Origin: Myxococcota bacterium
Lineage (GTDB): Bacteria; Myxococcota_A; UBA796; CAJQPC01
Direction of reading: 5' to 3'
DNA: 39,669 bases
NCBI GenBank assembly: GCA_023150845.1
Contig: JAKLKD010000030.1
Coordinates: 1-39,669 of the forward strand
Below are positions 2,512-31,470 of the stretch, piece after piece. Numbering within the stretch: the first letter of the stretch is position 1; every line of letters begins with the position of its first letter. The translations under genes were made by a program, and so were the position numbers. The notes below the pieces were generated by a model. That model searched no databases. It was not told where the DNA came from and saw nothing but the letters and a program-made list of their open reading frames with translations.

Positions 2512-3024
2512 ATGCGACCGCGCCTGCTCCCAACCCCCGCGGCGGCGCCCTCGCCGCTGCAAGCGCTCTTGGACTGCCACGAGCGAATCCGGCGGTTCTG
2601 CGGCGGGATGTTGCTCCTCTGTGAGCAGCCCGATCCCGACGACCCCCGCGTCGTGAACACCGCCGAGCGCGTCGCCCGCTACCTGCGCGTGGGCCTGCCG
2701 CTTCACGCCCAAGACGAGGATGAGTCGGTCACGCCGCGCCTCATGGCCTTGGCGCTGCCGGACGAGGTGCTCGCCGCCTTGGCCGTCCAACAAGACGAGC
2801 ACGTCACCATCGAGGCCCTTCGGTGTGAGGTGGTCCTGGGCCTGGAGCGGGTGGTCACACACCACACCGCGCTCCCGGTCGTCTCAATGGGCCACCTCAC
2901 GCCCCTTCTTCTGTCGCACATCGACGCTGAGGAGCGCCTGATCTTCCCCCACATCCCGCGCCTGCCTCAAGACGAGCAGCAGGCCATTCTGCGAGAGCTC
3001 CTCGCCCGGCGTCAGAGCCCCTGA
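2512..3024 (+). CDS. Hemerythrin-like domain protein
   Basis: 170 residues, all one hemerythrin-like helical domain. Candidate metal ligands are in LDCHERIRRFC near the N-terminus, PLHAQDEDESVTPRL, QQDEHVTIEALR, and LLSHIDAEERLIFPHI near the C-terminus, which follow the H-xxx-E and HxxxE..FP patterns of the family. GGAGG at 2502-2506 sits five bases before the second of two adjacent ATGs, so I chose 2512 over 2509. It lies 22 bases after the RIC gene and is probably cotranscribed. The cysteines and the lack of an ScdA_N domain separate it from RIC. Its substrate is unknown: it could bind O2 or NO, or hold iron for RIC-type repair. Confidence 0.8.
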   Translation: MRPRLLPTPAAAPSPLQALLDCHERIRRFCGGMLLLCEQPDPDDPRVVNTAERVARYLRVGLPLHAQDEDESVTPRLMALALPDEVLAALAVQQDEHVTIEALRCEVVLGLERVVTHHTALPVVSMGHLTPLLLSHIDAEERLIFPHIPRLPQDEQQAILRELLARRQSP

Positions 3025-3109: not shown

Positions 3110-4135
3110 ATGAAGACGTCCACTCTGCTCCGGTTCGGCCACGTCGCGACCCGTTACCACCTCACGGGCCAGCGCGCGCCGCTGAACACGATGATCGCCC
3201 TGACCGACCAATGCAACGCCCGCTGCGCCTACTGTGACATCCCGGCGCGGGGGCGGCCCGGCTTAGAGAGCAAGGCGCTTCTGCGTCTCATTGATGAGCT
3301 GGCCGAGGCGGGCTGCGCTCGGCTCGGCTTCTGGGGCGGCGAGCCGTTGTTGCGCCCGGATCTCGGCGCCTTGATTGATCACGCCCACGCCCTGGGCCTC
3401 TGGACGAGCCTCGACACCAACGGCTACCTCTTCCCCAAGCGGGCCCAGGAGCTACACAACCTGGACCACGTCGTTTTTTCGCTGGACGGATTCCGCACAA
3501 ACCATGAGCTGAACCGTGAGGCGGGCGCCTATGACAAGGTGATGGCGGCGATTCATCGCGCGGCTGAGATGAAGAAGCCGTTCTGGACGCTCACCGTGCT
3601 CACCCGGCACAATCTGGGCGACATCGGGATGATCTTGGATCTCGCTGAGGCGACCGGCGGTCGGGCGGCGTTTCAGGTGCTTCATCACCCGCCGGGCGTG
3701 GCCTCGACGGAGGCGGGCTCCTTGGCGCCAGAGCCCGAGGCCCTGCGTGACGCTCTGCGGGCGCTCCTCGCGGCCAAAGAGGCCGGGCGCCCCGTCGCTG
3801 TGAGCCGAGGCACCCTCCACCACCTCATCACCTGGCCCGATTACAGCCAGCGCTGCTCCTACACCCCGAGTCGGCCCCGCTGCTTGGCTGGGGAGCTGTG
3901 GGTGAACATCGACCCCGAGGGCCAGCTCTTCGCCTGCTCGTTGTGGCCCGATCACAAGAGCCCGCCGAACGCCGTCACCGAGGGCTTCGCCGCCGCGTTT
4001 GAGCGCCTCACCGCCCCGCCCTGCCGAGCCTGCCTCGCGACCTGCTTCACCGAGGTCCAAGGCTTGTTCTCCTTACAACCCGCCGCCCTCAAAGAGGCCC
4101 TGGTGAACCTCCTCCCCCAACGGAGCGCGCCATGA
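3110..4135 (+). CDS. Radical SAM enzyme with C-terminal Cys-rich (SPASM/Twitch-like) region
   Basis: 341 residues. The radical SAM cluster motif is CNARCAYC (Cys35, Cys39, Cys42), followed by GFWGGEPLLRPDL (the GGEP SAM-binding motif) and SLDTNGYL/VVFSLDG strands of the partial TIM barrel. The C-terminal part has six further cysteines (249, 258, 276, 305, 308, 312), arranged C..C...C...CxxCxxxC, as in auxiliary-cluster SPASM or Twitch domains. This resembles PqqE/NirJ-type enzymes that modify peptides or tetrapyrroles, but no heme d1 genes are present and the nitrite reductase here is copper-type. AGGAGAG precedes the ATG. The stop overlaps the start of the next gene in ATGA, so the two radical SAM proteins are probably translationally coupled. 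Confidence 0.85.
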   Translation: MKTSTLLRFGHVATRYHLTGQRAPLNTMIALTDQCNARCAYCDIPARGRPGLESKALLRLIDELAEAGCARLGFWGGEPLLRPDLGALIDHAHALGLWTSLDTNGYLFPKRAQELHNLDHVVFSLDGFRTNHELNREAGAYDKVMAAIHRAAEMKKPFWTLTVLTRHNLGDIGMILDLAEATGGRAAFQVLHHPPGVASTEAGSLAPEPEALRDALRALLAAKEAGRPVAVSRGTLHHLITWPDYSQRCSYTPSRPRCLAGELWVNIDPEGQLFACSLWPDHKSPPNAVTEGFAAAFERLTAPPCRACLATCFTEVQGLFSLQPAALKEALVNLLPQRSAP

Positions 4136-5958
4136 ACACCCCCAGCGCCGTCACGATGACCCCCGCCGAGCTGGCCGCTCTCGCCGAGCACATCTTAGGC
4201 ACCCACCACGCGCTCCTGCACCGGGAGCTTCCTCGGCTCGACGCCGCGCTCAGCGCCGCGCCGCGCTCGCTCCGCGCGCCGTTTGGCCACCTCAAGTCGC
4301 TCCTTGATGATCACCTGATGAAAGAGGAGCGCATCCTGTTCCCGGCGATCTTCGCGCTCTGTGGCGGCGAGGGCGCGGCTGGCTGCGGGCTCTTTGGCCC
4401 CATTCAGCAGATGCAGCACGAGCACGAGCAGATCCGCCTGCTGGAGACGGCGCTGCGCGAGGCCGCGAGAGACGCGGGGCCTCTGGAGGTCGATCTCTTG
4501 GCGCTGCTCGACGACCTGAGCGTTCACGCGGAGACCGAGGACACGCTGCTGTTCCCGGCGGCGGTGGCTCTGGAGCGCGCGGCGCTGGGGGGTGACGACG
4601 AGGAGGCGCCTGCGCCGACGATGCCCGACGGCGACGAGCTGGTGCGTGAGACGCGCGGCGCCTGCTCCACCTGCCTTGAGGACGTGCCCGCGGCGGTGAT
4701 GATCCGACACGGTGAGGCCCTCCTCGTCAAACGATGCCCTGAGCACGGCGAGACCACCCAGCTCCTCAGCCGTCACGGCGCGGAGTGGGCCGAGCTCGAC
4801 CGCTTCTTCTTTCAGGTGAACGGCGACACCCGCCCCCAGCGCGACTACATCGTGCGAATGACCGAGCGGTGCAACCTCGCCTGCCCGATCTGTCTCGCCA
4901 AGGCGAACACCCAGGACACGCCCGATCTCCCGCTGAGCGGCCTGGAGGAGCTCCTGAGCGCGCGCCGGGGCCTCAAGATCGACCTCATGGCCGCCGAGCC
5001 CACCTTACGCGAGGATCTCCTCGACTGGGTGCGCCGGGTGAAGGCCGCCGGGCACACCGCGGCGCTGCACACAAACGGCCTCAAGCTCGCCAGCCGCTCC
5101 TTTGTTCGTGCGCTCAAAGAGGCCGGGGTGAGCGAGGTGTTCTTACAGTTTGACGGCCTGAATGAGCAGGCGAACGTCACGCTTCGGGGGCGACCCTTGC
5201 TCAAGGCGCGGCTGGCGGCGCTCAAGAACCTGCGTGAGATCGGCGTGGCCGTGAGCCTCATCGTCGTGATCGGCAAAGATATCAACGAGGAGCAGGTCGG
5301 CGAGACCTTACGTTTTGCCCTCCAGCCCGAGAACAGCCACATCCGAGAGGTCTTTTATCTGGGCCTGCGGTCCTTGGGCAGCGCGCGGGCGTCGGGGGAC
5401 TTCGCAGGGCAGGCGCTCATGCCCGATGAGGTGCTCGACCTGCTCTGCGCCCAGGAGCCCGCCGTGCGGCGCCAAGATGTGCGTGACTTCAACAAGATCT
5501 ACTTCACGATGCTCTCGGCGATGCGGGTGAGAAAGTGTCTGTATGTGCAGCACTACCTGCTCAGCCGCGACGGAAAAGGCGGATACAAGCCGATCTCCGA
5601 GGCCCTGGACCTCTCCCGCCTCGCCGCCGCCTGTGATCGTTACGCCGATCGTGCGCAGTCTTCGCCTCACCTCGCCCGGGCCGCGCTCATCCCGTCGTTT
5701 ATTCGCCAAGGTCTACGCCCCCAGGCTTTGCCCCTGGCCCCGGATCTGCTGCGGCTGGAGAGCCTCTTCGCCCGCGGCTTCAACTTGGATGAGGTGCCGA
5801 GCCGCTTCTTGTTGCTCGGCTTCATCACGGCCTGCGACCCTGACAACTACGATCAGATGGTCTCGGCGGGCTGCGGAAAGGGGGAGCTCTCCGCCGATGG
5901 GGGCTTCGTGGAGTCGGGCGCGGACGCGAACGTCGCCCGTGAGCGCCGCTTCGTTTAG
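4132..5958 (+). CDS. Hemerythrin domain fused to a radical SAM enzyme (tetraether-synthase-like architecture)
   Basis: 608 residues. Residues about 10-150 are a hemerythrin-like bundle: His25/His26, His61 with Glu65 (DDHLMKEERILFP), His96/His98 (QHEHEQ), His132 with Glu136 (HAETEDTLLFP). After an acidic linker, a small Cys motif follows: Cys178-Cys181, then Cys202-PEHG (residues 172-210), the layout that precedes the barrel in MJ0619/Tes-like radical SAM proteins. The radical SAM motif is CNLACPIC (247, 251, 254). Later strands include LHTNGLKLA and VFLQFDG. The C-terminal 200 residues are less familiar. Overlap ATGA with the upstream radical SAM gene. The reaction is unknown; lipid or cofactor modification gated by a di-iron O2/NO sensor is conjecture. 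Confidence 0.8.
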   Translation: MNTPSAVTMTPAELAALAEHILGTHHALLHRELPRLDAALSAAPRSLRAPFGHLKSLLDDHLMKEERILFPAIFALCGGEGAAGCGLFGPIQQMQHEHEQIRLLETALREAARDAGPLEVDLLALLDDLSVHAETEDTLLFPAAVALERAALGGDDEEAPAPTMPDGDELVRETRGACSTCLEDVPAAVMIRHGEALLVKRCPEHGETTQLLSRHGAEWAELDRFFFQVNGDTRPQRDYIVRMTERCNLACPICLAKANTQDTPDLPLSGLEELLSARRGLKIDLMAAEPTLREDLLDWVRRVKAAGHTAALHTNGLKLASRSFVRALKEAGVSEVFLQFDGLNEQANVTLRGRPLLKARLAALKNLREIGVAVSLIVVIGKDINEEQVGETLRFALQPENSHIREVFYLGLRSLGSARASGDFAGQALMPDEVLDLLCAQEPAVRRQDVRDFNKIYFTMLSAMRVRKCLYVQHYLLSRDGKGGYKPISEALDLSRLAAACDRYADRAQSSPHLARAALIPSFIRQGLRPQALPLAPDLLRLESLFARGFNLDEVPSRFLLLGFITACDPDNYDQMVSAGCGKGELSADGGFVESGADANVARERRFV

Positions 5959-6317
5959 AGCCCGGCGCGGGCCTCGGGGGCGATGTGCTCCGGGCTCCAC
6001 GGCGGGTCGAACACGACCTCCACCTGGGGCGTGAAGCCGACCGACACGATGGCCTCTTTGACGTCTTCGTAGAGATCAAACGCCGCCGGGCAGCCTTCAG
6101 TGGTGAAGGTCATCTGCACCACCGCGACCGCGTCCCGAAGCGTGACGGCGCGGATGAGGCCCATGCTCACGATGTCGAGGCCCACCTCGGGGTCGATGAC
6201 GTCGCGCAACTTGTCCAGAAGCGCGCCCTCGGCGCCAGCGAGGGCGTAGATCGCCGGGGACGGCGGCGGGGCGAGGAGCGCGCTGAGGCGCTCGGAGAGT
6301 TTGTGTACGAGGGTCAT
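5955..6317 (-). CDS. DUF59/MIP18-family Fe-S cluster assembly factor
   Basis: 120 residues. Residues about 30-110 show the family pattern LRDVIDPEVGLDIVSMGLI...VVQMTFTTEGCPA, including the conserved DPE and the reactive-type Cys in TEGCPA. Family members (PaaD, SufT, MIP18) aid Fe-S cluster maturation in the cytoplasm. The start at 6317 overlaps the stop of the upstream membrane-protein gene by four bases (ATGA). Its own stop overlaps the convergent stop of the hemerythrin/radical SAM gene. With RIC across the convergent boundary, it suggests an Fe-S repair theme; that link is inference. Confidence 0.85.
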   Translation of the reverse strand: MTLVHKLSERLSALLAPPPSPAIYALAGAEGALLDKLRDVIDPEVGLDIVSMGLIRAVTLRDAVAVVQMTFTTEGCPAAFDLYEDVKEAIVSVGFTPQVEVVFDPPWSPEHIAPEARAGL

Positions 6318-7552
6318 GTGGCCTCCAGACCGGGCAGCGCCCGGCGTTTGACGACAGCGAGCCAGCCCCGAGCGGCCGCCCGCGTGAGCAGGACGATGTG
6401 CAGCGCCGCGCCGAGCAGCCCCAGGACCGCGCCGATCCGCCCCACGGCGACCGGCGCGCCGAGAAGCACGAGGCTCACCCCGAGGCCCGCGAGCATCGAG
6501 AGCGCCATCGACAGCCTCGGCAGGCGCTCCCCGGTGAGGGCCTTCGCCGTCGGGGCGCGCTGAAGCTGGCCGACGAACAGATGAACCTCCAGCAAGAACG
6601 GGAGGATCTTGAGCGCCACCCCCCGCAAGAACGGCAGCGCCCATAGGCCCAAGGCGAGGGCGACGGCCTCAGGGCGCGGCCCCCAGCCTAGGCTCACCAC
6701 CGCGAGGCCGATGAGCGCGACGAGGCCCAGCGCGGCGCCCCAGACGCCTGGATCGACGCCGCGCCGCGCTCTGCGGCTCAGCGAGAGCAGCAGCGTGAGC
6801 GCCGCGAGGGCCGCGCCGATGGCCCAGACCGCCGGGACGCCCAGGGCGAGCCCGACAAACCAGGCGGTGGCCGCGAGGGCCCAAGGCCAGGGGCGAGGCT
6901 CGGCGGAGAGGCTAAACATCGGCAGCAAGAGCCCGCCGAGGCCGAGCATCCAGCCGCCCACCCAGCCCAACAGCAGGAGCGCGGCGTGGTGCGCGATGCC
7001 CACCATCGGGGGCAACACGAACCAGAACCCCGCCCGCCCGCTGTACAGGAGCGCGCCCAACGTGAGGCCAGCGAGGCCCGAGAGCTCCGCGAACAAGAGC
7101 CACAGCCGGGTCACCCGGCGCCCCTTCGCCCGGGAGAGCGCCCAGAGCACCCCGACGGCGCGGAGGCAGAGGCCAAAGATCAGCCCGGCGCCGCCGACCG
7201 CGCCGAGCACGCCGAGGGCCTGGGGCCAGCCGAGGCCGAGCATCAACCCCGCGCCGCCGCCGAGGATCAAGGCGTCACAGACGGCGGCGAGGCGGGTCCA
7301 GCCCGGCGGCGGCGTTTGTGCGGTCACCACGGGCACAAGCTGCCAGCCCAAGCCGACGATGGCCATCATCAGCGTGCCGACGGTGATCAGGTGGACCGCG
7401 ACCAAGAGCCCGCTCCGCCCGTACCACGCCGCGCCGTCGAGCACGCCGGGCCAGGCCAAGAGCAGCCATGCGAGGGGCTCGGCGACGAGCGCGACGGCGA
7501 CGGGCGGGATCACCACCCTCGGCGGGATGAGGGTCTGGGGGTCAGGGCGCAT
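6314..7552 (-). CDS. Polytopic membrane protein, NnrS/haem-copper-like
   Basis: 412 residues with about 11-12 predicted membrane helices. Histidines lie within helices: AVHLITVGTLMMAIVG, GIAHHAALLLLGW, LEVHLFVG and ALHIVLL, a distribution reminiscent of NnrS or haem-copper oxidase subunit I relatives that are common in denitrification clusters. I cannot confirm haem or metal ligands without alignment. The ATG at 7552 (MRPDPQ) is preferred because it overlaps the end of the upstream DUF2249 gene by 11 bases; an ORF extension upstream to 7615 is unlikely. It is flanked by DUF59 and DUF2249 genes in one compact operon. Confidence 0.7.
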   Translation of the reverse strand: MRPDPQTLIPPRVVIPPVAVALVAEPLAWLLLAWPGVLDGAAWYGRSGLLVAVHLITVGTLMMAIVGLGWQLVPVVTAQTPPPGWTRLAAVCDALILGGGAGLMLGLGWPQALGVLGAVGGAGLIFGLCLRAVGVLWALSRAKGRRVTRLWLLFAELSGLAGLTLGALLYSGRAGFWFVLPPMVGIAHHAALLLLGWVGGWMLGLGGLLLPMFSLSAEPRPWPWALAATAWFVGLALGVPAVWAIGAALAALTLLLSLSRRARRGVDPGVWGAALGLVALIGLAVVSLGWGPRPEAVALALGLWALPFLRGVALKILPFLLEVHLFVGQLQRAPTAKALTGERLPRLSMALSMLAGLGVSLVLLGAPVAVGRIGAVLGLLGAALHIVLLTRAAARGWLAVVKRRALPGLEAT

Positions 7553-8342
7553 GAATCTGGAGCTCGATGTGGTCTTCGCGCTTCGCCATCGTCCAGACAA
7601 GCCCCCGCGCCTCAAGCTGGGGAAAGAGCAGGGCGGGCTCCCGGTGATGAAGCACGGTCAGCGGTGTGCCTTGGTCCAGCGCCCAGAGGATGAGGCGCAG
7701 AGGCTCGGGCGGCGGCAGGCCACGCACGTCGAGCACACCCGCCCGAAGGCGCGCTTGGCCTAGGCGGGCCGTGTCGGCGTCGGGCGCTCCCGGATCAACC
7801 GCCCCGCCGTGGCCCTCGGGCGGGCGCCAAAACGACGTGACGCAGACCTCACCCTCCCAGCGCACCCAGGCCAACCACCCGCGACGGCCCAGAAGGTCCA
7901 CGAGCGGCGCGGGCTCAAACGGCGCGGATAGCGCCAAGACGGCCCCGGGCTTGAGGCCACGAAGGGCGGTCATCACCGCGCCGAAGGGCTCTTGGCCTTG
8001 TTGGAGGAGCGGCGAGACGTCGAGGCGCTCCACGGGGGCGCCCCTCGCCCAGGCCGGCTCGGGGTCGTCTCGGCGCGCGGCGGCGGGCAAGGCGGCGGCG
8101 CCGGTAGCATCAGCGGCGGGCGGCCCTTGGAGGTTAAACACCGCCAAGAGCGACTCGGCGTCTACCCCGGCCACCCGGGCGGCGGACTCAATGGTCACCA
8201 GCTTGGGCAGCACCCGGCCCAAGACCGGGTGGTTGAGCCGCTCAAACGCCGGGTGGAACGCCGGGAGCAGGGTGCGCAGGGCGGGCTTCTCGGCCAAGGC
8301 CTCGGAGACCCGGGTGTGCAGTGTGAAGGGGGCGATGGTCAT
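7542..8342 (-). CDS. DUF1858-DUF2249-DUF2249 protein
   Basis: 266 residues. Residues about 5-70 match DUF1858 (LHTRVSEALAEKPALRTLLPAF...LVTIESAARVAGVD), and two TusA-like DUF2249 modules follow: one with GAVLALSAPFEPAPLVDLLGRRGW...CVTSF and a C-terminal one starting DVRGLPPPEPLRLILWALDQG. Such fusions commonly sit beside nitric oxide reductase and hemerythrin genes in denitrifiers; the biochemical role is not known. The start at 8342 is chosen because two upstream in-frame starts would lie at or before the transcript start predicted from the sigma-54-type promoter at 8379-8394. First gene of a three-gene operon. Confidence 0.8.
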   Translation of the reverse strand: MTIAPFTLHTRVSEALAEKPALRTLLPAFHPAFERLNHPVLGRVLPKLVTIESAARVAGVDAESLLAVFNLQGPPAADATGAAALPAAARRDDPEPAWARGAPVERLDVSPLLQQGQEPFGAVMTALRGLKPGAVLALSAPFEPAPLVDLLGRRGWLAWVRWEGEVCVTSFWRPPEGHGGAVDPGAPDADTARLGQARLRAGVLDVRGLPPPEPLRLILWALDQGTPLTVLHHREPALLFPQLEARGLVWTMAKREDHIELQIHAP

Positions 8343-8378
8343 GGCGAGCGCCTCGGGGACAGGCAGGGAGACGCACAT

Positions 8379-8394
8379 TGCAAGAAGCGGTCCA
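8379..8394 (-). promoter_or_regulatory. Sigma-54-type -24/-12 promoter (minus strand)
   Basis: Read on the minus strand the sequence is TGGACCGCTTCTTGCA. GG and GC are ten bases apart, the -12 element TTGCA is perfect, and the -24 element differs from TGGCACG at two positions. It shares the internal GCTTCTTGC with the promoter at 1756. The predicted transcript start is near 8368, about 26 bases before the ATG at 8342, matching the leader length before the RIC gene. Confidence 0.75.
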
Positions 8395-8498
8395 GCCCCA
8401 GAGACGCTCAATTGACAATAACCTCTGTTGAGTTGGCGGCAGTTGACACAGGCCGGGTGTGTGGGATCACACCCTCACCCCCAATCGTGACGCCGGGC

Positions 8499-8948
8499 TC
8501 AGTCCTTGGGCGGCGCCTGGCTCGCCAGCTCGGCGTGCAGGTGCTCCAGGGAGCGCACCTCGGCCAGCGTCGTCTTCTTGGCCCACTGGTTCACGCAGCC
8601 GTGGAGCTGCGACCAGGCGTTGTGCAGGCTGCACGGGTTCTTGGGGTTACACGCCCCGAAACCAAAGGCGCAGCGGCGGTCCTCAGACGACCAGTCCGAG
8701 GCGTCGAGCACCTCCATGAAGGTGATGGCGTTGGGCGGTCGGGCGAGGCGAAAGCCGCCACCGTGGCCCCGCAGCGCCTCGACGAGCCCCGCGACGACGA
8801 GGTGGCGCATCACTTTGGAGATGTAGTGCTCGGGGATGGCCGCCAGCTCGGCGAGCTCCTTCGCGCGCACCCGCTCGCCGGAGTCGTAGTTCCCAGCGAG
8901 GATCGCCATCGCGCGGAAGGCGTACTCAGCGGTGTGGTTGAGGAGCAT
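8499..8948 (-). CDS. Rrf2-family Fe-S transcriptional regulator (NsrR-like)
   Basis: 149 residues. The N-terminal winged helix-turn-helix has the Rrf2 hallmarks HTAEYAFRAMAILA, RAKELAELAAIPEHYISKVMRHLVVAGLVEALRG and GGGFRLARP. Three cysteines in RRCAFGFGACNPKNPC (spacing C-X6-C-X5-C) would bind an Fe-S cluster, as in NsrR (NO sensor) and IscR, though the first gap is one longer than in IscR. The start at 8948 (MLLNHTAEYAF) matches the family start; a longer frame upstream lacks homology. It is divergent from norC with a 156-base shared upstream region. NsrR-like control of the NO genes here is inference. Confidence 0.88.
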   Translation of the reverse strand: MLLNHTAEYAFRAMAILAGNYDSGERVRAKELAELAAIPEHYISKVMRHLVVAGLVEALRGHGGGFRLARPPNAITFMEVLDASDWSSEDRRCAFGFGACNPKNPCSLHNAWSQLHGCVNQWAKKTTLAEVRSLEHLHAELASQAPPKD

Positions 8949-9072
8949 GTCGTCGGCCTCTGCGAGCGGATGCGGTATCCCGAGCCTTGGGCAGCGTCCA
9001 GGGGCGGGCCCAGCCCGAATCCTGCTCTGGGTCAGTACCGCCCGCAGCCCAAGCTCCTTACACTGGCAAAAC

Positions 9073-9092
9073 AACGGATACCGATGTCTGTT
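9073..9092. promoter_or_regulatory. Candidate operator upstream of norC
   Basis: AACGGATACCGATGTCTGTT fits the near-palindrome AACAGACAT-N2-ATGTCTGTT at 15 of 18 half-site positions, with the right half perfect. The 14-bp core ends 15 bases before the norC ATG, so a bound repressor would cover the ribosome binding site and probably the start of transcription. Similar sites precede nirK, the porin and the nap operon. The best candidate protein is the divergent Rrf2 regulator. Confidence 0.5.
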
Positions 9093-9104
9093 GAAGGAGT
9101 CTCA

Positions 9105-9812
9105 ATGCTCTCGAAGTCACAGGCGAGGAGCTTCTTCCTCTTCGCGACGGTCGGCTTCTCAGGCGTGTTCTTGTGGTTGACGGTCGATACGGTCCGTCAG
9201 GTCCCGGCGCGCTCTCATGAGGAGAACATGAACGCCTCGGTGATCCGAGGCAAAGAGATCTGGGAGAAGAACAACTGCATGGGCTGCCACACCATCCTCG
9301 GTGAAGGCGCCTACTATGCGCCGGAGCTGACGAAGGCCGTGGAGCGCCGCGGTGAGCCGTGGCTGCGGATTTTCCTCAAGGATCCCCAGGCGATGTACCC
9401 GGGGCGTCGCAAGATGGTCCAGTACAACTTCACCGAAGAAGAGATCACCGACGTGATCGCCTTCTTGGACTGGATCGGCAAGATCGACACCAACGGCTTC
9501 CCCGCCAAGCCGGACATGGCCCCCGTCGCCGTCGCGGCCGCCGCGACCGTCACCCCTGCCGCGGGCGCCCCGAGCGCCGTCGCCGCTCCCGCGCTGTTCA
9601 CCCAGGTCTGCGTGGCCTGTCACAGCCTCGGCGGCACCGGCGGCGTGGTCGGCCCGGCCTTGGACGGCGTCGGCACCCGCTACGATCGTGATGGCCTGCG
9701 CGCCTGGCTCGACAACCCCCAGTCGGTCAAGCCTGGCACGGCGATGCCCGATCTCAACCTCTCGGCCAGCGACCTCGACGCGCTGACCGATTTCCTCATG
9801 TCTCAGCGCTGA
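9105..9812 (+). CDS. norC: Nitric oxide reductase cytochrome c subunit with an extra C-terminal cytochrome c domain
   Basis: 235 residues. Residues about 9-30 are the N-terminal membrane anchor. The NorC domain follows, with haem site CMGCH (58-62), the family signature HTILGEGAYYAPELTK and a probable axial Met104 (RRKMVQYNF). After an Ala/Pro-rich linker (140-162), a second cytochrome c domain has CVACH (169-173) and likely axial Met214 in GTAMPDLNLS. Canonical NorC is about 150 residues with one haem, so the second domain is an addition. GAAGGAG ends five bases before ATG 9105, preferred over the in-frame ATG at 9084. It delivers electrons from periplasmic donors to NorB, nine bases downstream. 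Confidence 0.93.
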   Translation: MLSKSQARSFFLFATVGFSGVFLWLTVDTVRQVPARSHEENMNASVIRGKEIWEKNNCMGCHTILGEGAYYAPELTKAVERRGEPWLRIFLKDPQAMYPGRRKMVQYNFTEEEITDVIAFLDWIGKIDTNGFPAKPDMAPVAVAAAATVTPAAGAPSAVAAPALFTQVCVACHSLGGTGGVVGPALDGVGTRYDRDGLRAWLDNPQSVKPGTAMPDLNLSASDLDALTDFLMSQR

Positions 9813-9821
9813 GAGGTCACC

Positions 9822-11201
9822 ATGGACAACCCGCTCAAGTTTCAGTCCTGGCGGATCGCGTGGACCTTCTTCGCGACCTGCCTCCTCCTTCTCTCTTTAC
9901 AGATCGTCTACGGCTTCATCATGGGCTTCGCCCACATGGGCTATGACGTCCTGCACGACTGGATCCCGTTCAACACCGCCCGCGCGACCCACACAAACCT
10001 GCTCGTGGTCTGGCTGCTCGCCGGGTTCATGGGCTCGGCGTACTACATTATTCCCGATGAGTCCCAGACGGACATCTGGAGCATGAAGCTCGGCTGGGCC
10101 CAGTGGGGCTCGCTGGTGGTCGTCGGCGTGATCGCGGTGGCGGGCTTCCACTTCAACTGGTGGGAGGGCCGCAAGTTCCTAGAGATCCCGCGTCCGCTTG
10201 ACTACCTCGTCGTGGTCAACGTCCTGACCTTCTTGTTCAACATCGGGATGACGGTCTACAAAGGCAAACGGTACACCACGACGGCGCTCACGCTGCTCGC
10301 TGGGCTCACCGCCGCTGCGCTGTTGTACCTGCCGGGCATGATCACCTTCGACTCCCAGGTGATCGACTCGTACTTCCGCTGGTGGGTGGTGCATCTGTGG
10401 GTCGAGGGCGTTTGGGAGCTGGTGATGGGCGCGATCCTGTCGTACCTGCTCATCAAGCTCTCGGGTGTTGACCGCGAGATCATCGAGAAGTGGCTCTACG
10501 TCATCGTCGGGCTCACCTTCTTGAGCGGTATCCTCGGCACGGGCCACCACTACTACTGGATCGGCGCGCCGGAGTACTGGCTCATGGTCGGCGGACTGTT
10601 CTCGGCCCTGGAGCCTCTGGCGTTCTTGGGCATGGCGCTCTACACCGTGGCCATGGCCCGTCGCGGCGGCCGCAAACACGCGAACAGCGTCGCGCTCTCC
10701 TGGTCGGTGGGCTGCGGCATCATGAGCTTCGTCGGCGCGGGGTTCTTGGGCTTCGCCCACACCTTGCCTCAAGTCAACATCTGGACCCACGGGACCTTGG
10801 TGACCGCGATGCACGGACATATGGCCTTCTGGGGCGCCTACGCGATGCTCGTCTTCGCGATGATGGCCTACGCCCTGCCGGAGATGACCGGGCGCAAACA
10901 CTACGACTCTTGGGTCGCGGAGTGGGCGTTCTGGCTGAGCAACATCGGCATGATCTCCATGACCGGCGCCTTCGCCGTCGCGGGCATCACCCAGGTGTAT
11001 CTGGAGCGCCGCGTCGGGATGGACTTCTTGTTGGCCCAGGAGGCCGTCGAGGTTCACTTCTTGGGGCTCATCCTCGCCGCGAGTCTGTTCACCTTGGGCA
11101 TCAGCCTCTACATCTGGAACTTCAGCCGCTATGGCGTCGTGGCCCTGTCCAGTGACGTCTCCGGTGACGCGCCGAGCCCGGCGCCGAGCCTCGCGAAGTG
11201 A
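9822..11201 (+). CDS. norB: Nitric oxide reductase catalytic subunit (cNOR)
   Basis: 459 residues, about 12 membrane helices. Haem-copper-superfamily ligands are all visible: His57 (ATHTNLLVVW) and His333 for haem b, His331 (MHGHMAFWG) for haem b3, and His191, His242 and His243 (VVHLWVEG, GTGHHYYW) for non-haem FeB, with Glu195, Glu199 and Glu264 near the site as in cNOR. It reduces two NO to N2O in the cytoplasmic membrane. The long N-terminal periplasmic extension of quinol-dependent qNOR is absent, consistent with the separate NorC. The stop is followed by norQ, with an alternative GTG overlapping it. Confidence 0.97.
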   Translation: MDNPLKFQSWRIAWTFFATCLLLLSLQIVYGFIMGFAHMGYDVLHDWIPFNTARATHTNLLVVWLLAGFMGSAYYIIPDESQTDIWSMKLGWAQWGSLVVVGVIAVAGFHFNWWEGRKFLEIPRPLDYLVVVNVLTFLFNIGMTVYKGKRYTTTALTLLAGLTAAALLYLPGMITFDSQVIDSYFRWWVVHLWVEGVWELVMGAILSYLLIKLSGVDREIIEKWLYVIVGLTFLSGILGTGHHYYWIGAPEYWLMVGGLFSALEPLAFLGMALYTVAMARRGGRKHANSVALSWSVGCGIMSFVGAGFLGFAHTLPQVNIWTHGTLVTAMHGHMAFWGAYAMLVFAMMAYALPEMTGRKHYDSWVAEWAFWLSNIGMISMTGAFAVAGITQVYLERRVGMDFLLAQEAVEVHFLGLILAASLFTLGISLYIWNFSRYGVVALSSDVSGDAPSPAPSLAK

Positions 11202-11275
11202 TTGAACCGCGCGGGCGCTGCGAGATCAGCGCCCGCGCCTCGGCCATCACCCTCGGGCTGGCCACTGGAGCGAAG

Positions 11276-12088
11276 ATGTCTCTGTTCGAGGACGAGCACG
11301 TCGATCCCCAACCCCCCTCGTTGCCCTGGTATCAGCCGGTCGGTGATGAGCTCGTGCTGTTTGAGCACGCCTATCGCCAGCGCCTCCCGCTGATGATCAA
11401 GGGCCCCACGGGCTGCGGCAAGTCCCGGTTTGTGGAGCACATGGCCGCGCGGCTGGGCCGCCCGCTCATCACCGTCGCTGCCCACGACGACACCTCGGCC
11501 ACGGACCTGCTCGGGCGCTGGCTCATTCGCGGCGGCGAGACCGTGTGGCAAGACGGCCCGGTCACCCGCGCCGTGCGCCAGGGGGCCATCCTGTACATCG
11601 ACGAGGTCGCCGAGGCCCGCCCGGACGTGGTCGTGGCCTTACACCCGCTCACCGACCACCGCCGCAGCCTGTACCTCGACCGCTGTGATGAGGAGCTCAG
11701 CGCGCCGCCTGAGTTTATGCTCATCGTCTCGTTTAACCCCGGCTATCAGCGCTCCCTCAAAGAGATGAAGCCGTCCACCCGCCAGCGGTTTATCGGCCTG
11801 CGCTTTGACTACCCGGCGCCCGACCTAGAGGCGCGCATCGTGTCTGGTGAGACGGGGGTAGAGCCGTCTGTGGCCAAACGGCTCGTGGCCTTGGCGGCGA
11901 AGGTGCGCTCGCTGGAGACCTTGGGCCTCGCGGAGCTGCCGTCCACCCGCCTGCTCGTGGACGCCGCGCTGCTGATCCGCTCGGGGCTCGGGGCTCGGGC
12001 GGCCTGCCGCGCGGGGGTGGTCGAGCCGCTCACCGACGATCCCGACGTGCGCGACGGCCTGATGGACCTCGTGAACCTGGTGTTCTGA
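11276..12088 (+). CDS. norQ: MoxR-type AAA+ ATPase for NO reductase maturation
   Basis: 270 residues. The family start PWYQPVGDELVLFEHAYRQRLPLMIKGPTGCGKSRFVEHMA contains Walker A GPTGCGKS; Walker B is ILYIDEV, and sensor residues follow in LIVSFNPGYQ. NorQ acts with NorD to insert FeB into NorB (shown for Paracoccus). ATG 11276 has GGAG five bases upstream and matches the length of homologues; a GTG at 11198 overlapping the norB stop would add 26 unconserved residues. The gene leads into norD 14 bases later. Confidence 0.95.
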   Translation: MSLFEDEHVDPQPPSLPWYQPVGDELVLFEHAYRQRLPLMIKGPTGCGKSRFVEHMAARLGRPLITVAAHDDTSATDLLGRWLIRGGETVWQDGPVTRAVRQGAILYIDEVAEARPDVVVALHPLTDHRRSLYLDRCDEELSAPPEFMLIVSFNPGYQRSLKEMKPSTRQRFIGLRFDYPAPDLEARIVSGETGVEPSVAKRLVALAAKVRSLETLGLAELPSTRLLVDAALLIRSGLGARAACRAGVVEPLTDDPDVRDGLMDLVNLVF

Positions 12089-12102
12089 GCCGGAGGTGCC
12101 CT

Positions 12103-13986
12103 GTGTCTGGACCTTCGTTTGATCTCGACTGGGAGCTGGGGCTGTTTAAGGCCGTCCGTGCGCTGTGGCGCGCGGTCGCGCCGAGCCCCGCGCCGCTGTT
12201 TGACCCCGCTCGGGCCGCGACGCTGGCCGCCCATGGCCCGGCGCTGCGGGTGCTCGGCCAGATGATCGCCGGGGAGGCCGTGCGGCTTCAGCCCGCGCGT
12301 TCCGAAGGCGGCGTTCGGGGTCGTGATCTGCTCATCCCCGCCTGGATTGAGGTGTGCGCCGATCCTACGCTCAACCGGGAGATCATGGCCCTGCGGGTGG
12401 TCGTCGCCGCCGAGCAGCGCCGCCTGCGGCTCGTCGCCCCGGAAGAGGAGCTGGAGAACCTCTTCGTGAGCGTCGGCGCCGCGCAAGACGCCGCGTTGGG
12501 CCTCTCGGCGCGCCTGCCACGCTTCGCCGAGGCTTGGGCCGAGGCCAGCGCGCTCGTGCTGCGGGGTCGCCCCGATCCCGCGAGCTTGTCGGGCCGGGCG
12601 CGGCTCATCGAGGAGCTGCGTCAATCGGCCCTGCGCGGTGAGACGAGCTGGCGAACCCCGGAGCGCCTCGCCCTCTTGCGCGCCACGGCGGAGCGCGGCG
12701 CGGCGAGCCCGCCGGTGCCCTTGTGGGGTCGGCTTCACCCGGCGTCCCCTGAAGACGCCTTGGGTGGAGACGACTCCCCGGACAAGCTCGACCAGCAGCC
12801 GCCCAGCGCGGAGGCGACCGAGCGTGAGGCCGGGGCGATCGAGGAGCTCAAGCTCGTCCAGCTCAAGCCACAACAGGGCCTTGAGCTGCCGACCCACGTC
12901 TTTGAGAAGGTCGAGACGGCCGAGGGCTTCAACGGCTCGATGCGCCAGCTCGACGGGGAAGACGAGCTGAACGATCACATGGAGGCGCTCGACGAGGTGG
13001 ACCTCTCGCATCTTGTGCGGGGTGGGCCGCGGGCGAGCTCGGTGCTCAAGGCGGAGATCGGCCTCGACGTGGAGGTGCCCGACATCTCCCGCGTCTCGCC
13101 GGGTGAGCGGGCGGTGCTCTACGATGAGTGGGATCACCGGGCCAAAAATTACCGCAAAGGTTGGTGTCAGGTGTACCCGACCCAGGCGCCCCGCGGGGAT
13201 CAGCGCTGGGCGATGGAGGCGCTCTCCCGACACAGGCGCCTCGTCGAGCGGCTGTACCAAGACCTCGCCAAGCAGCGGGCGGCGCTGGCCCCGGCGCCCC
13301 GACAGGCGGACGGCGAGGAGATCGATCTGGACGCCGTGGTGGAGGCTTGGTCGGAGCTGCGCGCCCGCCGCTCACCGCCGGATCGGCTGTACATTCGTGC
13401 CCGGCGGCAGCGCCGCGATGTCGCCACGACGGTGCTCCTCGACCTCTCGCTCTCCACCGACTCCTGGGTGCAGGAACGCCGGGTGCTCGACGTCTCCCGC
13501 GAGGCTGTGCTTGTGCTGGGTGAGGTCGCTGAGCGGCTGGGAGACTCGCTGCAGGTGCTCGCCTTCGCCAGCCAGACCCGCAACCAGATCCGGGTGTGGG
13601 AGGTGCGCGGCTGGAGCGAGCCCTGGTCGGTGGGCCGGGGTCGGCTCGGCGCGCTCTGCCCGCAGGGCTACACCCGCATCGGCCCAGCCATTCGCCACGC
13701 CGTCGCCGGGCTCAGCAAACGAGACGCCCGGGAGCGCCTGCTGCTCATCGTGAGCGACGGAAAACCGACGGATCACGACCGGTATGAGGGCCGGTATGGT
13801 GTGGCGGATGTGCGCCAGGCGCTCCGCGAGGCCAAACGAGACGGCGTCCACGTTCACGCCTTGGCCATCGACGCCGTCGCCCGAGATTATCTGCCGTCGA
13901 TGTTAGGGCCCGGCGGCTGGACGATCTTGCCGCGGCCCGACCGGCTCCCCGAGGCGATCACGCAGATCTACGGGAGGCTCGTGTGA
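12103..13986 (+). CDS. norD: NorD, von Willebrand A-domain protein for NO reductase activation
   Basis: 627 residues. A charged N-terminal half of about 430 residues precedes a C-terminal vWA domain with the MIDAS motif DLSLSTDSW, followed by GYTRIGPAIRHAVAGL and IVSDGKPTDHDRYEGRYG. NorD binds NorQ and acts at the cytoplasmic face of NorB. The start is GTG 12103, with GGAGG six bases before it. The stop TGA overlaps the next ATG in TGATG. The length fits the family. Confidence 0.95.
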   Translation: MSGPSFDLDWELGLFKAVRALWRAVAPSPAPLFDPARAATLAAHGPALRVLGQMIAGEAVRLQPARSEGGVRGRDLLIPAWIEVCADPTLNREIMALRVVVAAEQRRLRLVAPEEELENLFVSVGAAQDAALGLSARLPRFAEAWAEASALVLRGRPDPASLSGRARLIEELRQSALRGETSWRTPERLALLRATAERGAASPPVPLWGRLHPASPEDALGGDDSPDKLDQQPPSAEATEREAGAIEELKLVQLKPQQGLELPTHVFEKVETAEGFNGSMRQLDGEDELNDHMEALDEVDLSHLVRGGPRASSVLKAEIGLDVEVPDISRVSPGERAVLYDEWDHRAKNYRKGWCQVYPTQAPRGDQRWAMEALSRHRRLVERLYQDLAKQRAALAPAPRQADGEEIDLDAVVEAWSELRARRSPPDRLYIRARRQRRDVATTVLLDLSLSTDSWVQERRVLDVSREAVLVLGEVAERLGDSLQVLAFASQTRNQIRVWEVRGWSEPWSVGRGRLGALCPQGYTRIGPAIRHAVAGLSKRDARERLLLIVSDGKPTDHDRYEGRYGVADVRQALREAKRDGVHVHALAIDAVARDYLPSMLGPGGWTILPRPDRLPEAITQIYGRLV

Positions 13987-15053: not shown

Positions 15054-15126
15054 AGAGCTGACGTAGATCCTACATTTGAGCGTTCGCTGTGAACGCCGTT
15101 GAACACGTCGCGGCCCGTGCACTATC

Positions 15127-15146
15127 AATAGTTATAGATGTCCGGT
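15127..15146. promoter_or_regulatory. Candidate operator upstream of nirK
   Basis: The sequence matches AACAGACAT-N2-ATGTCTGTT at 13 of 18 half-site positions (core AGTTATAGATGTCC, 15130-15143). It ends 19 bases before the core-to-ATG boundary of nirK, about the same distance as at norC, and it is the AT-richest part of the 109-base gap. Weaker than the norC and porin copies. Confidence 0.4.
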
Positions 15147-15162
15147 GACAAAGGAGTCCCCC

Positions 15163-18852: not shown

Positions 18853-20364
18853 TCAGAACTTCGCGGTCACGACCTGCTTGATCTCCCAAGCGGGCGCGAG
18901 GTTGTTACTATGGCCCAAGATGAGCAGGCCCGCGCCATCGCCGGGCAAAAACACGCCGGTCTGCGCCTGGTACGAGAAGCCCTTCCACACGTTCCAGTCG
19001 AGGTTGAGATCGACCTCTTGGCCCAGGGACGACGACTGGGCGTCGGTGAGCGCGCCCGTGGCGTCCCAGCCCTGAATCGGCGTGGTGGCCTGGAGGAAGG
19101 TGTAGGTGGCGAGGAGCTTCACCTTCTCATGGGGCTTGACGCCGAGGCGCCCTTGCACGGCGATGGTGTTCTCAAACTCCCGATAGCCCCGGCTGAGCGG
19201 CGAGCCTAAGCCTTGGGGGCTGATGCCCTCTTGGTCGGGCATCACGGAGTCTTCCCAGACGTTCGTGAAGTTGAACTGACCCATCGTCATGATCTTGTTG
19301 AGGTTACCATCTCCGCCCGCGCGGTCGGCGTCACCGCTGCCCGCGCCGAAGGCCGCGCCGAGGCTCACCGGCAGCGCCTCGCCCAAGGTCTGATCGGCCA
19401 GGGCGTAGGCCACCCAGCCCTTGAGCTGACCGTTGTTGATGTCGAGGGTGCCGCCCGCGGAGTCGAGGTTGTCCACGTCGTCTTGCCCTTGGAGCCACGC
19501 GGCCTCCGCCGCCCAGCTCAGCCCGCCGAGGACCGGGGCTGTGCCCGAGCCCGCCGCGCCCAAGGCCAAGGCCGAGCTGATGTTGGGGCGGAACCGCGCC
19601 AGGTTGTGACCGAGGCCGTTGGGCACATAGGTCGCCGAGCCACCGCCGCTGTTGTCGAGGTAGTACAGACCATACAGCTCACCCTTGAGGTGATCGTTCG
19701 GCTCCACACGCACCCGGCCCCCGAAGAGGTCGGCGTCGGCCATCGTGTCGGCGTCGCTCATCAGCGTCCCCGTGGGCGCTTTGGTCGAACCTTCGCCTTC
19801 AGAGAGTTTTGCCCACCACAGATCGATGTTGAGGGGCTTCATCGGGGTGATGAGCACCTGCACACCGTCGGCGTTTTGGTCCAACACCAACCCTTGCCCC
19901 ACCCAATAAAACTGGCGGCCCACCATGACCTTCACCGGCAGGTTCGGCACCTCCGCCCAGGCGTAGGCGAGGTCAAAGTGGACGGTGTAGTTGGTATCTT
20001 TGTCACGAAACAGCTTGTAGGGGTTGTAGGTCGAGGCCGTGGTCACCGTGCCGTCTTCAGCGACAGTGGTGGTCTGCTCCACGTCAGGGGAGTTGTCTAC
20101 CCCCCACCAGCCCTGGGCGGCGTCAAAGCGGGTGACGACGCCGAAGTGCTCCTGGTTAAACTTCACCAGCACCCGCAGGTTCTGTACGACATAGTCGCTG
20201 TCGTCGTAGGGCTGGGCGGGATCCCCCAAGAAGAAGTTCCGCTGGTTCAGCGCCCAGGCCGTGTAGGCGCCGGAGAGCTCGATGGCCTTGGTCGCAGGCG
20301 CGGGGGCCGCAGCGGGCTCGGCGGCCCAGAGGGCGGGAGAGATGAGCAGGAGCGCGGAGGTCAT
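18853..20364 (-). CDS. Outer membrane beta-barrel protein (porin, alginate-export-like)
   Basis: 503 residues. After a short signal (ALLLISPALWAAEP) the mature protein alternates hydrophobic and polar residues and ends in a Phe (VVTAKF), typical of outer membrane barrels. MVGRQFYWVGQGLVLDQNADGVQVLI and LATYTFLQATTP resemble alginate-export-type porins. GGAG lies eight bases before the ATG. In this position it could carry nitrate, nitrite or metals across the outer membrane; substrate unknown. An inverted repeat immediately upstream is a likely operator. The norE-like gene follows one base after its stop. Confidence 0.85.
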   Translation of the reverse strand: MTSALLLISPALWAAEPAAAPAPATKAIELSGAYTAWALNQRNFFLGDPAQPYDDSDYVVQNLRVLVKFNQEHFGVVTRFDAAQGWWGVDNSPDVEQTTTVAEDGTVTTASTYNPYKLFRDKDTNYTVHFDLAYAWAEVPNLPVKVMVGRQFYWVGQGLVLDQNADGVQVLITPMKPLNIDLWWAKLSEGEGSTKAPTGTLMSDADTMADADLFGGRVRVEPNDHLKGELYGLYYLDNSGGGSATYVPNGLGHNLARFRPNISSALALGAAGSGTAPVLGGLSWAAEAAWLQGQDDVDNLDSAGGTLDINNGQLKGWVAYALADQTLGEALPVSLGAAFGAGSGDADRAGGDGNLNKIMTMGQFNFTNVWEDSVMPDQEGISPQGLGSPLSRGYREFENTIAVQGRLGVKPHEKVKLLATYTFLQATTPIQGWDATGALTDAQSSSLGQEVDLNLDWNVWKGFSYQAQTGVFLPGDGAGLLILGHSNNLAPAWEIKQVVTAKF

Positions 20365-20382
20365 TGGGGGGTCTCCTCTATT

Positions 20383-20402
20383 AACAGACTTGCATGTCTA
20401 TT
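20383..20402. promoter_or_regulatory. Candidate operator upstream of the porin, the most symmetric copy
   Basis: AACAGACTTGCATGTCTATT matches AACAGACAT-N2-ATGTCTGTT at 16 of 18 half-site positions. The symmetry extends into flanking TTAA on both sides (20381-20404). The core lies 21 bases before the porin ATG. As the only nearly perfect palindrome of the series it defines the motif best. It may overlap an AT-rich -10 element. Confidence 0.55.
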
Positions 20403-20453
20403 AACTTGAAGGAGCCCCGAGGCCTCGACGGGGCGCTGTGCGCATGATCCCCG

Positions 20454-26949: not shown

Positions 26950-26966
26950 CGGCGCTCCGATCGATC

Positions 26967-26986
26967 AGTGGATATTGATGTCTTCT
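26967..26986. promoter_or_regulatory. Candidate operator upstream of the nap operon
   Basis: The + strand sequence AGTGGATATTGATGTCTTCT matches the deduced AACAGACAT-N2-ATGTCTGTT at 12 of 18 half-site positions, with ATGTCT intact. The core 26970-26983 lies 20 bases before the ATG of the tetraheme lipoprotein gene. It is the weakest symmetric copy but shares GGATA and GATGTCT with the norC site. Confidence 0.4.
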
Positions 26987-27111
26987 TACACGAGCGGCGC
27001 GCTCCCACCACGGCCTCAGCGCCGGGCTATGACCTACCGCAGCGTTCCGGCCCTTGTCCTCGCGCTGGCGAAGAGACCGATTATCAGCGCCAAGATCGTG
27101 AGGGCGAGGCC

Positions 27112-27732: not shown

Positions 27733-29289
27733 TCACCCCCAAACCTCCTCCATCAGCCCAAGCGCCGCCCGCAGCTCATCCATGATCTCCGCCGCCAGCA
27801 CCTCCGGCTCAGGCAGGCTCTCGGCGTCCAAGAGGCTGTCATCCTTGAGCCAGAACAGGTCCAGGCTGCACTTGTCGCGGCTCACCAGCTCGGCGTGGTC
27901 ATACGCCCGCCAGCGCCCCTCGGGGTTGGCCTCGCTCCAGGTGGCCTCGCGCTTCTGCGGCGCGTCGGGCTTGTAGCAGGCGACGAAGTCGTCCAGGCTC
28001 GCCCGCGTCATGGGGTTGGTCTTGAGCGTGAAGCGCTGGTTGGTGCGCAGGTCGTACACCCAGAGCTTCTTGGTCCAGGCGCCGCCGTCGGCCTTGGCCT
28101 TCTTGCGGGTGAAGAACAGCACGTTCGCCTTCACGCCTTGGGCGTAGAAGATGCCCGTGGGCAGGCGCAAGAGGGTGTGAACGTCACACTCGGCGAGCAG
28201 GCGGCGCCGGATGACCTCGCCCGCGCCACCCTCAAAGAGCACGTTGTCGGGCACCACCACCGCCGCGCGACCGTCAATCTTGAGCAGGGACTTCACATGC
28301 TGCACGAAGTTGAGCTGCTTGTTGGTGGTCGTCGCCCAGAAGTCATCACGCTCGTAGGTGATGCTGTCGCGCTCGGTGCCGCCGTGTTCACCCACCACGA
28401 GGATGCTCGACTTGCGGCCAAAGGGCGGGTTGGTGAGCACCAGGTCATACCGCTCGCCGCCCAGCTCTCGCAGGCCGTCGTCGGTGCGCACGGGCAGGCT
28501 GGCGTCGAGGCGCCCGTCGGCCTCCTCGGGGCTCACACCGCCCTTGATCAAGGCCGCCCGCATGGCGTCAAGCTCCTGGGGCGTGGGGCCGACGTTGTGA
28601 AGGAGCAGGTTCATCGCGCACAGTCGGGTGACCGACTGCACGATCTCCACGCCACGCAGGGCCTCCCGACGAAGGTGCTCGCGCTGCTCCTTCTCGATCT
28701 TGGGGTTTCGGGCGGTGATGTGCTGGTGCGCCGAGAGCAAGAACCCGCCCGTGCCGCAGGCCGGGTCGATGATCTTCTCGCCGGGCCGGGGGTTCATCAC
28801 CTCGACGATGGCGTCGATGAGCGGTCGCGGCGTGAAGTATTGCCCCGCGCCGGACTTGGTGTCCTGGGCGTTGCGCTCCAAGAGGCCCTCGTAGGCGTCG
28901 CCTTTGATGTCGGCGTCTACGAGCGTCCACTGCTCACGGTCGATCAGGTCGCTGATGAGCCGCTTGAGCTTGGCCGGGTCTTGGATCTTGTTCTGGGCCT
29001 TCCGAAACACGAGGCCCAAGAGCCCGTGCTGACGGCCCAGGTGCTCCAGCGTCGCCCGAAAGTGCTGCTCCAGGGCCACACCGTCGAGCGCGTTGAGGCT
29101 CGGCCAGTCGTACCCCTCGGGCACCGGAGACGGCTTGTTCCACGGGCGCTGGGTCTGCTCGTGGGCGAGCTTGAGGAACAGGAGCACGCTGAGCTGCTCC
29201 AGGTAGTCGCCATAGGAGAGCCCGTCGTCCCGCAGGATGTTGCAGTACGACCACAGCTTGTTGACGATGCGTGACGCCTCGGCGCTCAT
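27733..29289 (-). CDS. hsdM: Type I restriction-modification methyltransferase subunit HsdM
   Basis: 518 residues. An N-terminal helical HsdM_N domain (SRIVNKLWSYCNILRDDGLSYGDYLEQLSVLLFLKLA) is followed by the N6-adenine methyltransferase core: SAGQYFTPRPLIDA-like segment (147-160), SAM motif DPACGTGGF (175-183) and catalytic NPPF (287-290, LTNPPFGRK). It methylates adenine within the site chosen by HsdS. Start overlaps the hsdS stop by four bases. Last gene of the system, so the order is R, S, M rather than the commoner R, M, S. Confidence 0.96.
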   Translation of the reverse strand: MSAEASRIVNKLWSYCNILRDDGLSYGDYLEQLSVLLFLKLAHEQTQRPWNKPSPVPEGYDWPSLNALDGVALEQHFRATLEHLGRQHGLLGLVFRKAQNKIQDPAKLKRLISDLIDREQWTLVDADIKGDAYEGLLERNAQDTKSGAGQYFTPRPLIDAIVEVMNPRPGEKIIDPACGTGGFLLSAHQHITARNPKIEKEQREHLRREALRGVEIVQSVTRLCAMNLLLHNVGPTPQELDAMRAALIKGGVSPEEADGRLDASLPVRTDDGLRELGGERYDLVLTNPPFGRKSSILVVGEHGGTERDSITYERDDFWATTTNKQLNFVQHVKSLLKIDGRAAVVVPDNVLFEGGAGEVIRRRLLAECDVHTLLRLPTGIFYAQGVKANVLFFTRKKAKADGGAWTKKLWVYDLRTNQRFTLKTNPMTRASLDDFVACYKPDAPQKREATWSEANPEGRWRAYDHAELVSRDKCSLDLFWLKDDSLLDAESLPEPEVLAAEIMDELRAALGLMEEVWG

Positions 29290-30713: not shown

Positions 30714-30733
30714 GCCGTCGTCCCCTCAGATGC

Positions 30734-31007
30734 GGGAAACGAACCACAGAGGCACAGAGGACACAGAGTTATGAACACAGAGGACTCGGTGGTGGGTGAA
30801 GGCGGCTGCCGCGACTCGGAGGGCTGGAGGGAGGGGGTGGGCACGGAGAGGTTGTGGCGGAATGACGTGGGTTTGGGTGTCCCGCTCAGCCTCGGGGCGG
30901 CGGTGGAGAGGGCGTAGGGGCGCCTCTTTAGCCGGGATCGCCGCACGGCGCCACCAACCCCTCTGTGTCCCTCCTCTGTGTCCTCTGTGCCTCTGTGGTT
31001 CGTTCCC
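30734..31007. repeat. Large inverted repeat with CACAGAG arms
   Basis: Arms of about 34 bases are reverse complements: GGGAAACGAACCACAGAGG... (30734-30768) and the matching ...CTCTGTGGTTCGTTCCC (30974-31007). Inside each arm the 9-base unit (ACAGAGG(C/A)) is iterated. The interior of about 200 bases has no supported gene. Similar CACAGAGG arms are known as intergenic palindromic repeats in many bacteria; this copy separates the GxxExxY gene from hsdS. It fills the 343-base gap between those genes. Confidence 0.8.
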
Positions 31008-31056
31008 CCGAATCCCCACCAACCCTGAACGAGCCCCAGGCCCCGCACCACGCCAC

Positions 31057-31470
31057 TCATAAGCTCACCCGCTTGATCCCGTGCTTGAGCAGCTCCGCGT
31101 TGAAGTTCAGCAGCAACCCCACCCGCACACCCGAGAGCCGCAGGTACGTCAAGATCTGCGCCGTGTGGATCGGCTCCAGGGCCTTCACGGCCTTTAGCTC
31201 GACGATGACGGCGTTCTCGACGAGCAAGTCCACCCGGTAACCGAGCTCTAGCCGCATCCCTTTGTAGACCACCGGCACAGCGACCTGCCGCTCTACGCGA
31301 AGCCCCTTGGACTCCAGCTCCCACACGAGGCAGGCTTCATAGGCGGATTCAAGGAGCCCCGGCCCCAAGGCGCGATGCACCTCCAGGGCCGCGCCGAGGA
31401 TTGTGTCGGTGAGCCGCGCGTGAAGCGCCTCCGGGCTGGACTCCACCACAGGCGATGTCTCTACGCTCAC
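31057..31470 (-). CDS. GxxExxY protein (PD-(D/E)XK nuclease-like)
   Basis: 137 residues. The family signature GLLESAY lies in LEVHRALGPGLLESAYEACL, and a nuclease-like core follows: GYRVDLLVENAVIVELKAV, with D and ExK of the PD-(D/E)XK pattern. The C-terminus is LNFNAELLKHGIKRV, the usual family ending. The cellular role is not established. The start overlaps the hsdR stop by four bases, and an inverted repeat lies just downstream, so it may have arrived together with the repeat. Confidence 0.9.
   Translation of the reverse strand: MSVETSPVVESSPEALHARLTDTILGAALEVHRALGPGLLESAYEACLVWELESKGLRVERQVAVPVVYKGMRLELGYRVDLLVENAVIVELKAVKALEPIHTAQILTYLRLSGVRVGLLLNFNAELLKHGIKRVSL

Follow-up and report, generated by a model that had tools for sequence, protein, structure and literature searches.

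Sequence comparison and a modeled structure confirm that the open reading frame at positions 4132 to 5958 (+ strand) encodes a 608-amino-acid protein in which a RIC/YtfE-type hemerythrin (HHE) domain is joined to a radical SAM enzyme, the nearest solved relative of the latter being Tes/MJ0619. The window analyzed here is the complete 39.7-kb contig JAKLKD010000030.1 (39,669 nt) of a 7.13-Mb Myxococcota genome, and as the same fusion is present in 16 other genomes, it is neither a chance nor an assembly join. The parts of the protein are of known kinds; their arrangement and their placement in a nitric oxide (NO) regulon appear to be new, and together they point to an undescribed enzyme that would be made when NO is present. 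Few proteins are as sensitive to NO and O2 as iron-sulfur radical enzymes, and the mode in which RICs repair clusters is still debated. With a RIC-type domain naturally joined to a radical SAM enzyme, this question of cluster repair becomes directly testable within one polypeptide.

Domain organization of the fusion

The initial annotation, made from the sequence alone, had read this frame as a hemerythrin bundle with His/Glu pairs fused to an MJ0619/Tes-like radical SAM enzyme, and Pfam, phmmer, and Foldseek agree. Above the Pfam cut-offs, residues 20 to 144 match Hemerythrin (PF01814, E = 3e-14), residues 171 to 213 match Zn_ribbon_HMPTM (PF23545, E = 3e-12), and residues 242 to 396 match Radical_SAM (PF04055, E = 1e-17), while phmmer against PDB sequences aligns residues 12 to 146 with YtfE (7bhc) and residues 163 to 409 with Tes (7tol, E = 4e-30). 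The top Foldseek match of an AlphaFold2 model built on 21 relatives (pLDDT 86.8, pTM 0.70) is again Tes (7tom, E = 8e-22, TM 0.69 over the target), and both halves are thereby assigned, the N-terminal part as a hemerythrin and the remainder as a radical SAM enzyme. On the + strand, the HHE domain (residues ~12 to 152) occupies 4165 to 4587, a rubredoxin-like/Zn-ribbon domain 4642 to 4770, the radical SAM core 4855 to 5319, and a C-terminal Tes-like domain 5320 to 5955. The interdomain linker is variable among relatives and is modeled with low confidence.

Alignment with YtfE places the di-iron ligands of the HHE domain at H26, H61, H98, H132, E65, and E136, such that all six YtfE ligands (H84, H129, H160, H204, E133, and E208; PMC9268430) are kept, and E97 lies at the position of YtfE E159; the YtfE channel residue E125 is not conserved and is L57 in the fusion. 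The six ligands are also kept in nearly all first HHE copies of the relatives, the exceptions being G152 and the first copy of G128, which is frameshifted or incomplete in its assembly. Second copies, found in G166, G243, G092, and G128, are degenerate, with the fold kept and ligands lost. The four-His/two-Glu ligand set and the E159 equivalent are thus common to the fusion and to RIC/YtfE/ScdA proteins, but the fusion is without the ScdA_N domain and carries a radical SAM enzyme instead. Pfam did not find PF04405 in the fusion, and its HHE domain scores 50.9 bits against TIGR03652, a model that includes ScdA_N and has a cut-off of 204.7.

In the radical SAM half, the motifs named in the initial annotation (C178xxC181, C202PEHG, and C247NLACPIC) are all present. 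The rubredoxin site, C178-x2-C181-x20-C202-x2-H205, has spacing identical to that of the Tes motif (PMC9433317), and the CX3CX2C cysteines (C247, C251, and C254) are invariant across the 21 aligned sequences, as are C469, C568, and C581. Because C469 and C581 fall near Tes cysteines in a profile alignment, we infer that the three residues C469, C568, and C581 may be ligands of a putative C-terminal auxiliary cluster. Tes/GDGT-MAS (MJ0619; PDB 7TOL and 7TOM) is the best match of the core by both sequence and fold and has the rubredoxin-like site, the CX3CX2C barrel, and the C-terminal domain in common with the fusion. It differs, however, in its [Fe4S4]N motif, its C-terminal cysteine pattern, and its identity of only ~20%, and the fusion adds the N-terminal HHE domain; alignments of the fusion family lack the Tes N-terminal auxiliary [4Fe-4S] motif (C73, C77, and C80). 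Among NCBIfam models, TrsS (NF045646) fits the core best with 158.8 bits against a cut-off of 490, and the Tes model (NF045702) gives 116.6 bits against 450. Membership of either family is ruled out by these scores together with the missing N-terminal cluster motif; the difference from TrsS extends to the added HHE domain and to a gene without selenocysteine context. Elsewhere in the source genome, a paralogue on contig C88 (L066:3413-4840, G000) has the complete MJ0619/Tes set of cysteines, with the N-terminal auxiliary-cluster motif among them.

Distribution and gene neighborhoods

When 379 Myxococcota genomes were surveyed for the core at >=48% identity, it was found in one order (21 of 63 genomes) and in two further families of the class. 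The HHE domain is fused to it in 17 genomes including the source, the other 16 being Myxococcota of the same order, and several families have kept the fusion; 12 genomes carry one HHE copy and four carry two, and in G210 the gene is split over two contig ends. Five genomes (G035, G195, G289, G175, and G010) have a core without HHE, and the G185 gene runs to a contig edge. The tree does not separate a single from a multiple origin of the fusion. A wider scan of genome contigs, in which other phyla are thinly sampled, gave a near-identical Myxococcota genome as its only match, and a plasmid search returned distant radical SAM proteins and no fusion. The initial annotation knew of no well-described enzyme of this layout, and none is described in the literature searched, where coverage of subscription journals is thin.

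Upstream of the fusion lie a RIC of the ScdA/YtfE family (1809 to 2489, +; above the TIGR03652 cut-off), which is the first gene of a putative operon, a separate hemerythrin protein, HHE2 (2512 to 3024, +; PF01814), whose homologues lie close to the fusion in G243, G166, and G295, and a second radical SAM gene (3110 to 4135, +; PqqE/PTO1314-like by Pfam and NCBIfam, 341 amino acids). The RIC and hemerythrin had been recognized in the initial annotation, as had the ATGA overlap of the second radical SAM gene with the fusion start; this gene is on the upstream side of the fusion. The further proposal that these four genes form one system is only partly borne out: comparison of neighborhoods places RIC and the second radical SAM gene beside the fusion in the source genus only, which rules out a conserved operon beyond it. 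The second radical SAM family (~40% identity) is found in 24 of the 63 genomes of the order, many of them without the fusion.

The recurrent partners of the core gene are instead NnrS, hemerythrins, and a protein of the MBL fold, and NnrS, nor, hemerythrin, or RIC genes lie near it in several genera. In G295, the fusion is surrounded by norBQD, hemerythrin, NnrS, and nap genes. In both G243 and G166 a hemerythrin lies directly 5' of the fusion and NnrS 3', after the stand-alone core of G289 come an Rrf2 gene and an interrupted NnrS, and in G225 a RIC lies 14 kb from the fusion on the same contig. Many fusion genes adjoin unrelated genes.

The MBL-fold protein, which lacks the usual metal-binding motif, lies directly 3' of the fusion in G295 and G210, adjoins NnrS in G190, G312, G322, and G185, and adjoins hemerythrin in G092; in G025, an MBL-fold domain is itself fused to the same HHE type beside nirK and norCBQ. 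An NO-related role for this family is likely. Representative loci are L044:10389-11108, L045:8670-9458, L063:8339-9595, and L113:2188-2892. In the order, not counting family f2 (where both the core and the MBL gene are missing), genomes with the core exceed those without it in carrying the MBL protein (18/21 versus 9/21, p = 0.004), divergent NnrS (11/21 versus 3/21, p = 0.01), and norB (9/21 versus 2/21, p = 0.016), these p values ignoring relatedness.

A small PAS-LuxR regulator whose PAS domain is rich in cysteine (L044:7877-8341, L121:5484-5939, and L120:7780-8268) lies directly 5' of the G295 fusion and also in the nor or RIC neighborhoods of G210 and G225. Three genomes have a tryptophanase/tyrosine phenol-lyase-type gene next to the fusion or close by (L044:11108-12454, L054:7973-9370, and L049:12854-14260). 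A common pathway was sought from such neighbors and rejected as inconsistent, with a GMC oxidoreductase in two genomes and homogentisate-pathway genes in one; in the neighborhoods compared, no neighbor common to the core genes reveals the substrate.

A shared operator and the NO regulon

It is a common operator that ties this Tes-like enzyme to NO. A 26-bp palindrome, CTCAAnnGA-N8-TCnnTTGAG, is present at the RIC start (1788 to 1813, CTCAACAGA-CATGGAGG-TCCAGTGAC), between an Rrf2 gene and norC (9070 to 9095, 34 bp 5' of the called norC start), and before an operon of DUF1858/DUF2249, membrane protein, and DUF59 genes (8407 to 8432), the last being the one perfect match genome-wide. The palindrome was first noticed upstream of genes in G243 (L048) and G289 (L059), with weaker look-alikes in the window. 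When 12 fixed bases were searched genome-wide with at most one mismatch, the source genome gave six sites and the reversed control one; three of the six fall inside the window, a stretch that makes up 0.56% of the genome (binomial 3e-6), although the look-alikes seen there at motif discovery mean that the window is not a wholly blind test, and the genome-wide searches are the stricter ones. At the same threshold, G243 has two sites in its genome, before its HHE--HHE-HHE-rSAM operon and before NnrS, and G289 also has two, before the stand-alone radical SAM gene and before the Rrf2 gene.

A weight matrix, which scored no higher than 10.6 across a 686-kb shuffled control, adds sites before nirK, porin, nap-type operon, NnrS-MBL, HHE2-MBL, norC, and nosZ-like genes. 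The weaker copies in the window are at the nirK start (15124 to 15149, two mismatches), 5' of a porin gene at 18853 to 20364 (-) (20380 to 20405, two mismatches), and 41 bp 5' of the multiheme cytochrome that heads a nap-type operon (-) (26964 to 26989, matrix score 21). The distribution of sites suggests that a single repressor may serve the whole denitrification cluster. Relaxing the genome-wide search to at most two mismatches returns mostly background in several genomes, and at most fusion genes of family f5 both the operator and a directly adjoining NO gene are missing; in G295, a PAS-LuxR regulator takes the place of the site directly 5' of the fusion.

The likely binder of the operator, paired with it by position alone, is the Rrf2 protein encoded at 8499 to 9074 (-). 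It belongs to the Rrf2 family (PF02082, E = 5e-27) and is NsrR-like by context, with homologues of 55% and 63% identity beside sites in G289 and G152, and it scores 33 bits against the 182-bit cut-off of the E. coli-type NsrR model. In known NsrR regulons (PMC1274295), the regulator is likewise of the Rrf2 type and palindromic operators precede nirK, nor, nnrS, and RIC-type genes, but their published motif, gATGyAT-N5-ATrCATc (Rodionov et al. 2005, PMC1274295), differs from the palindrome found here. The remaining members in the window include norC-norB-norQ-norD (9105 to 13986, +; assigned by sequence and order) and the DUF2249/DUF1858, membrane protein, and DUF59 genes (5955 to 8411, -), a set that also flanks the G210 nor cluster. 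The multi-pass membrane protein of this set (6314 to 7615, -; L121:3883-5109) has no Pfam match and is conserved beside DUF2249 and DUF59 in nor clusters.

From the predicted sites, membership of the fusion or core family in an NO/denitrification regulon is well supported in at least three lineages, and the myxobacterial denitrification regulon that the common operator defines includes several uncharacterized members. The NO connection suspected in the initial annotation is borne out by these operators, common to the fusion and NO genes, and by the NnrS, nor, RIC, and hemerythrin neighbors in other genomes.

Possible function and its alternatives

The reading we prefer, to which we give about even chances, is that of an NO-regulon radical SAM enzyme of the Tes/TrsS/MJ0619 superfamily whose own RIC-type di-iron domain protects or re-supplies its clusters. 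An NO-responsive Rrf2 repressor would leave the operator, RIC-HHE2-rSAM1-fusion would be transcribed as a single unit, and the fused di-iron domain would trap NO (or O2) or return iron, whereby the enzyme's own [4Fe-4S] clusters would stay working, or be restored, at sites of NO production. The enzyme could then cleave SAM reductively, with the 5'-deoxyadenosyl radical taking a hydrogen from a substrate conceivably held between the barrel and the C-terminal domain. By analogy with Tes, and given the Tes-like C-terminal domain, this substrate might be hydrophobic, perhaps a lipid, which is the weakest step of the proposal. RICs donate iron and react with NO, acting in nitrosative stress (PMC8117158, PMC9268430), and in Campylobacter Fe-S enzymes are shielded by hemerythrins (PMC4257069), which makes a protective role for the di-iron domain a reasonable inference. 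The HHE domain cannot be obligatory, as five relatives do without it, including the operator-bearing G289, and the absence of norB from many fusion genomes counts against the explanation. It is a tentative and somewhat doubtful extension that an attached RIC-type module repairs or shields the clusters of its partner in cis, with an NO regulon using the enzyme for a new, possibly lipid, modification.

Instead of guarding the clusters, the HHE domain could act as a gas or redox sensor, turning the radical SAM enzyme on or off in response to NO, O2, or iron status. The variable, low-confidence linker would suit such a switch, as would the same HHE on an MBL-fold domain in G025 and the sensor HHE domains fused elsewhere to output domains, as in the BRUTUS-type iron sensors (PMC12022348); the ligand set, however, is that of the iron-lending, NO-reacting RIC type, and the second copies keep the fold and lose ligands, leaving a sensor rather unlikely.

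Heme d1 is not required by nirK-type nitrite reductases, which bears on the idea of a maturase or peptide-modifying radical SAM protein that serves a denitrification cofactor or protein with the PqqE-like enzyme as partner. The overlapping SPASM-like gene upstream and an operator common to the nor, nirK, and nap genes speak for this, but the nitrite reductase here is of that nirK type, the PqqE-like partner is not adjacent outside the genus and is widespread without the fusion, no small precursor gene was recognized, and the nearest fold is Tes rather than a SPASM maturase, making it distinctly improbable. Improbable too is a fusion by chance, in which HHE gives local scavenging of NO or O2 to an enzyme whose role is housekeeping and unrelated to NO; stand-alone cores and the many fusion genes beside unrelated genes would fit, yet the fusion is kept across several families, and in three lineages operators stand before the gene for the fusion or the core.

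Elsewhere in the window, an apparent type I restriction-modification set with methylase, specificity, and helicase-like subunits is encoded at 27733 to 34463 (-), and translations of two partly repeated open reading frames (36176 to 37954 and 38816 to 39667) resemble RHS-type fragments joined to transposase-like sequence.
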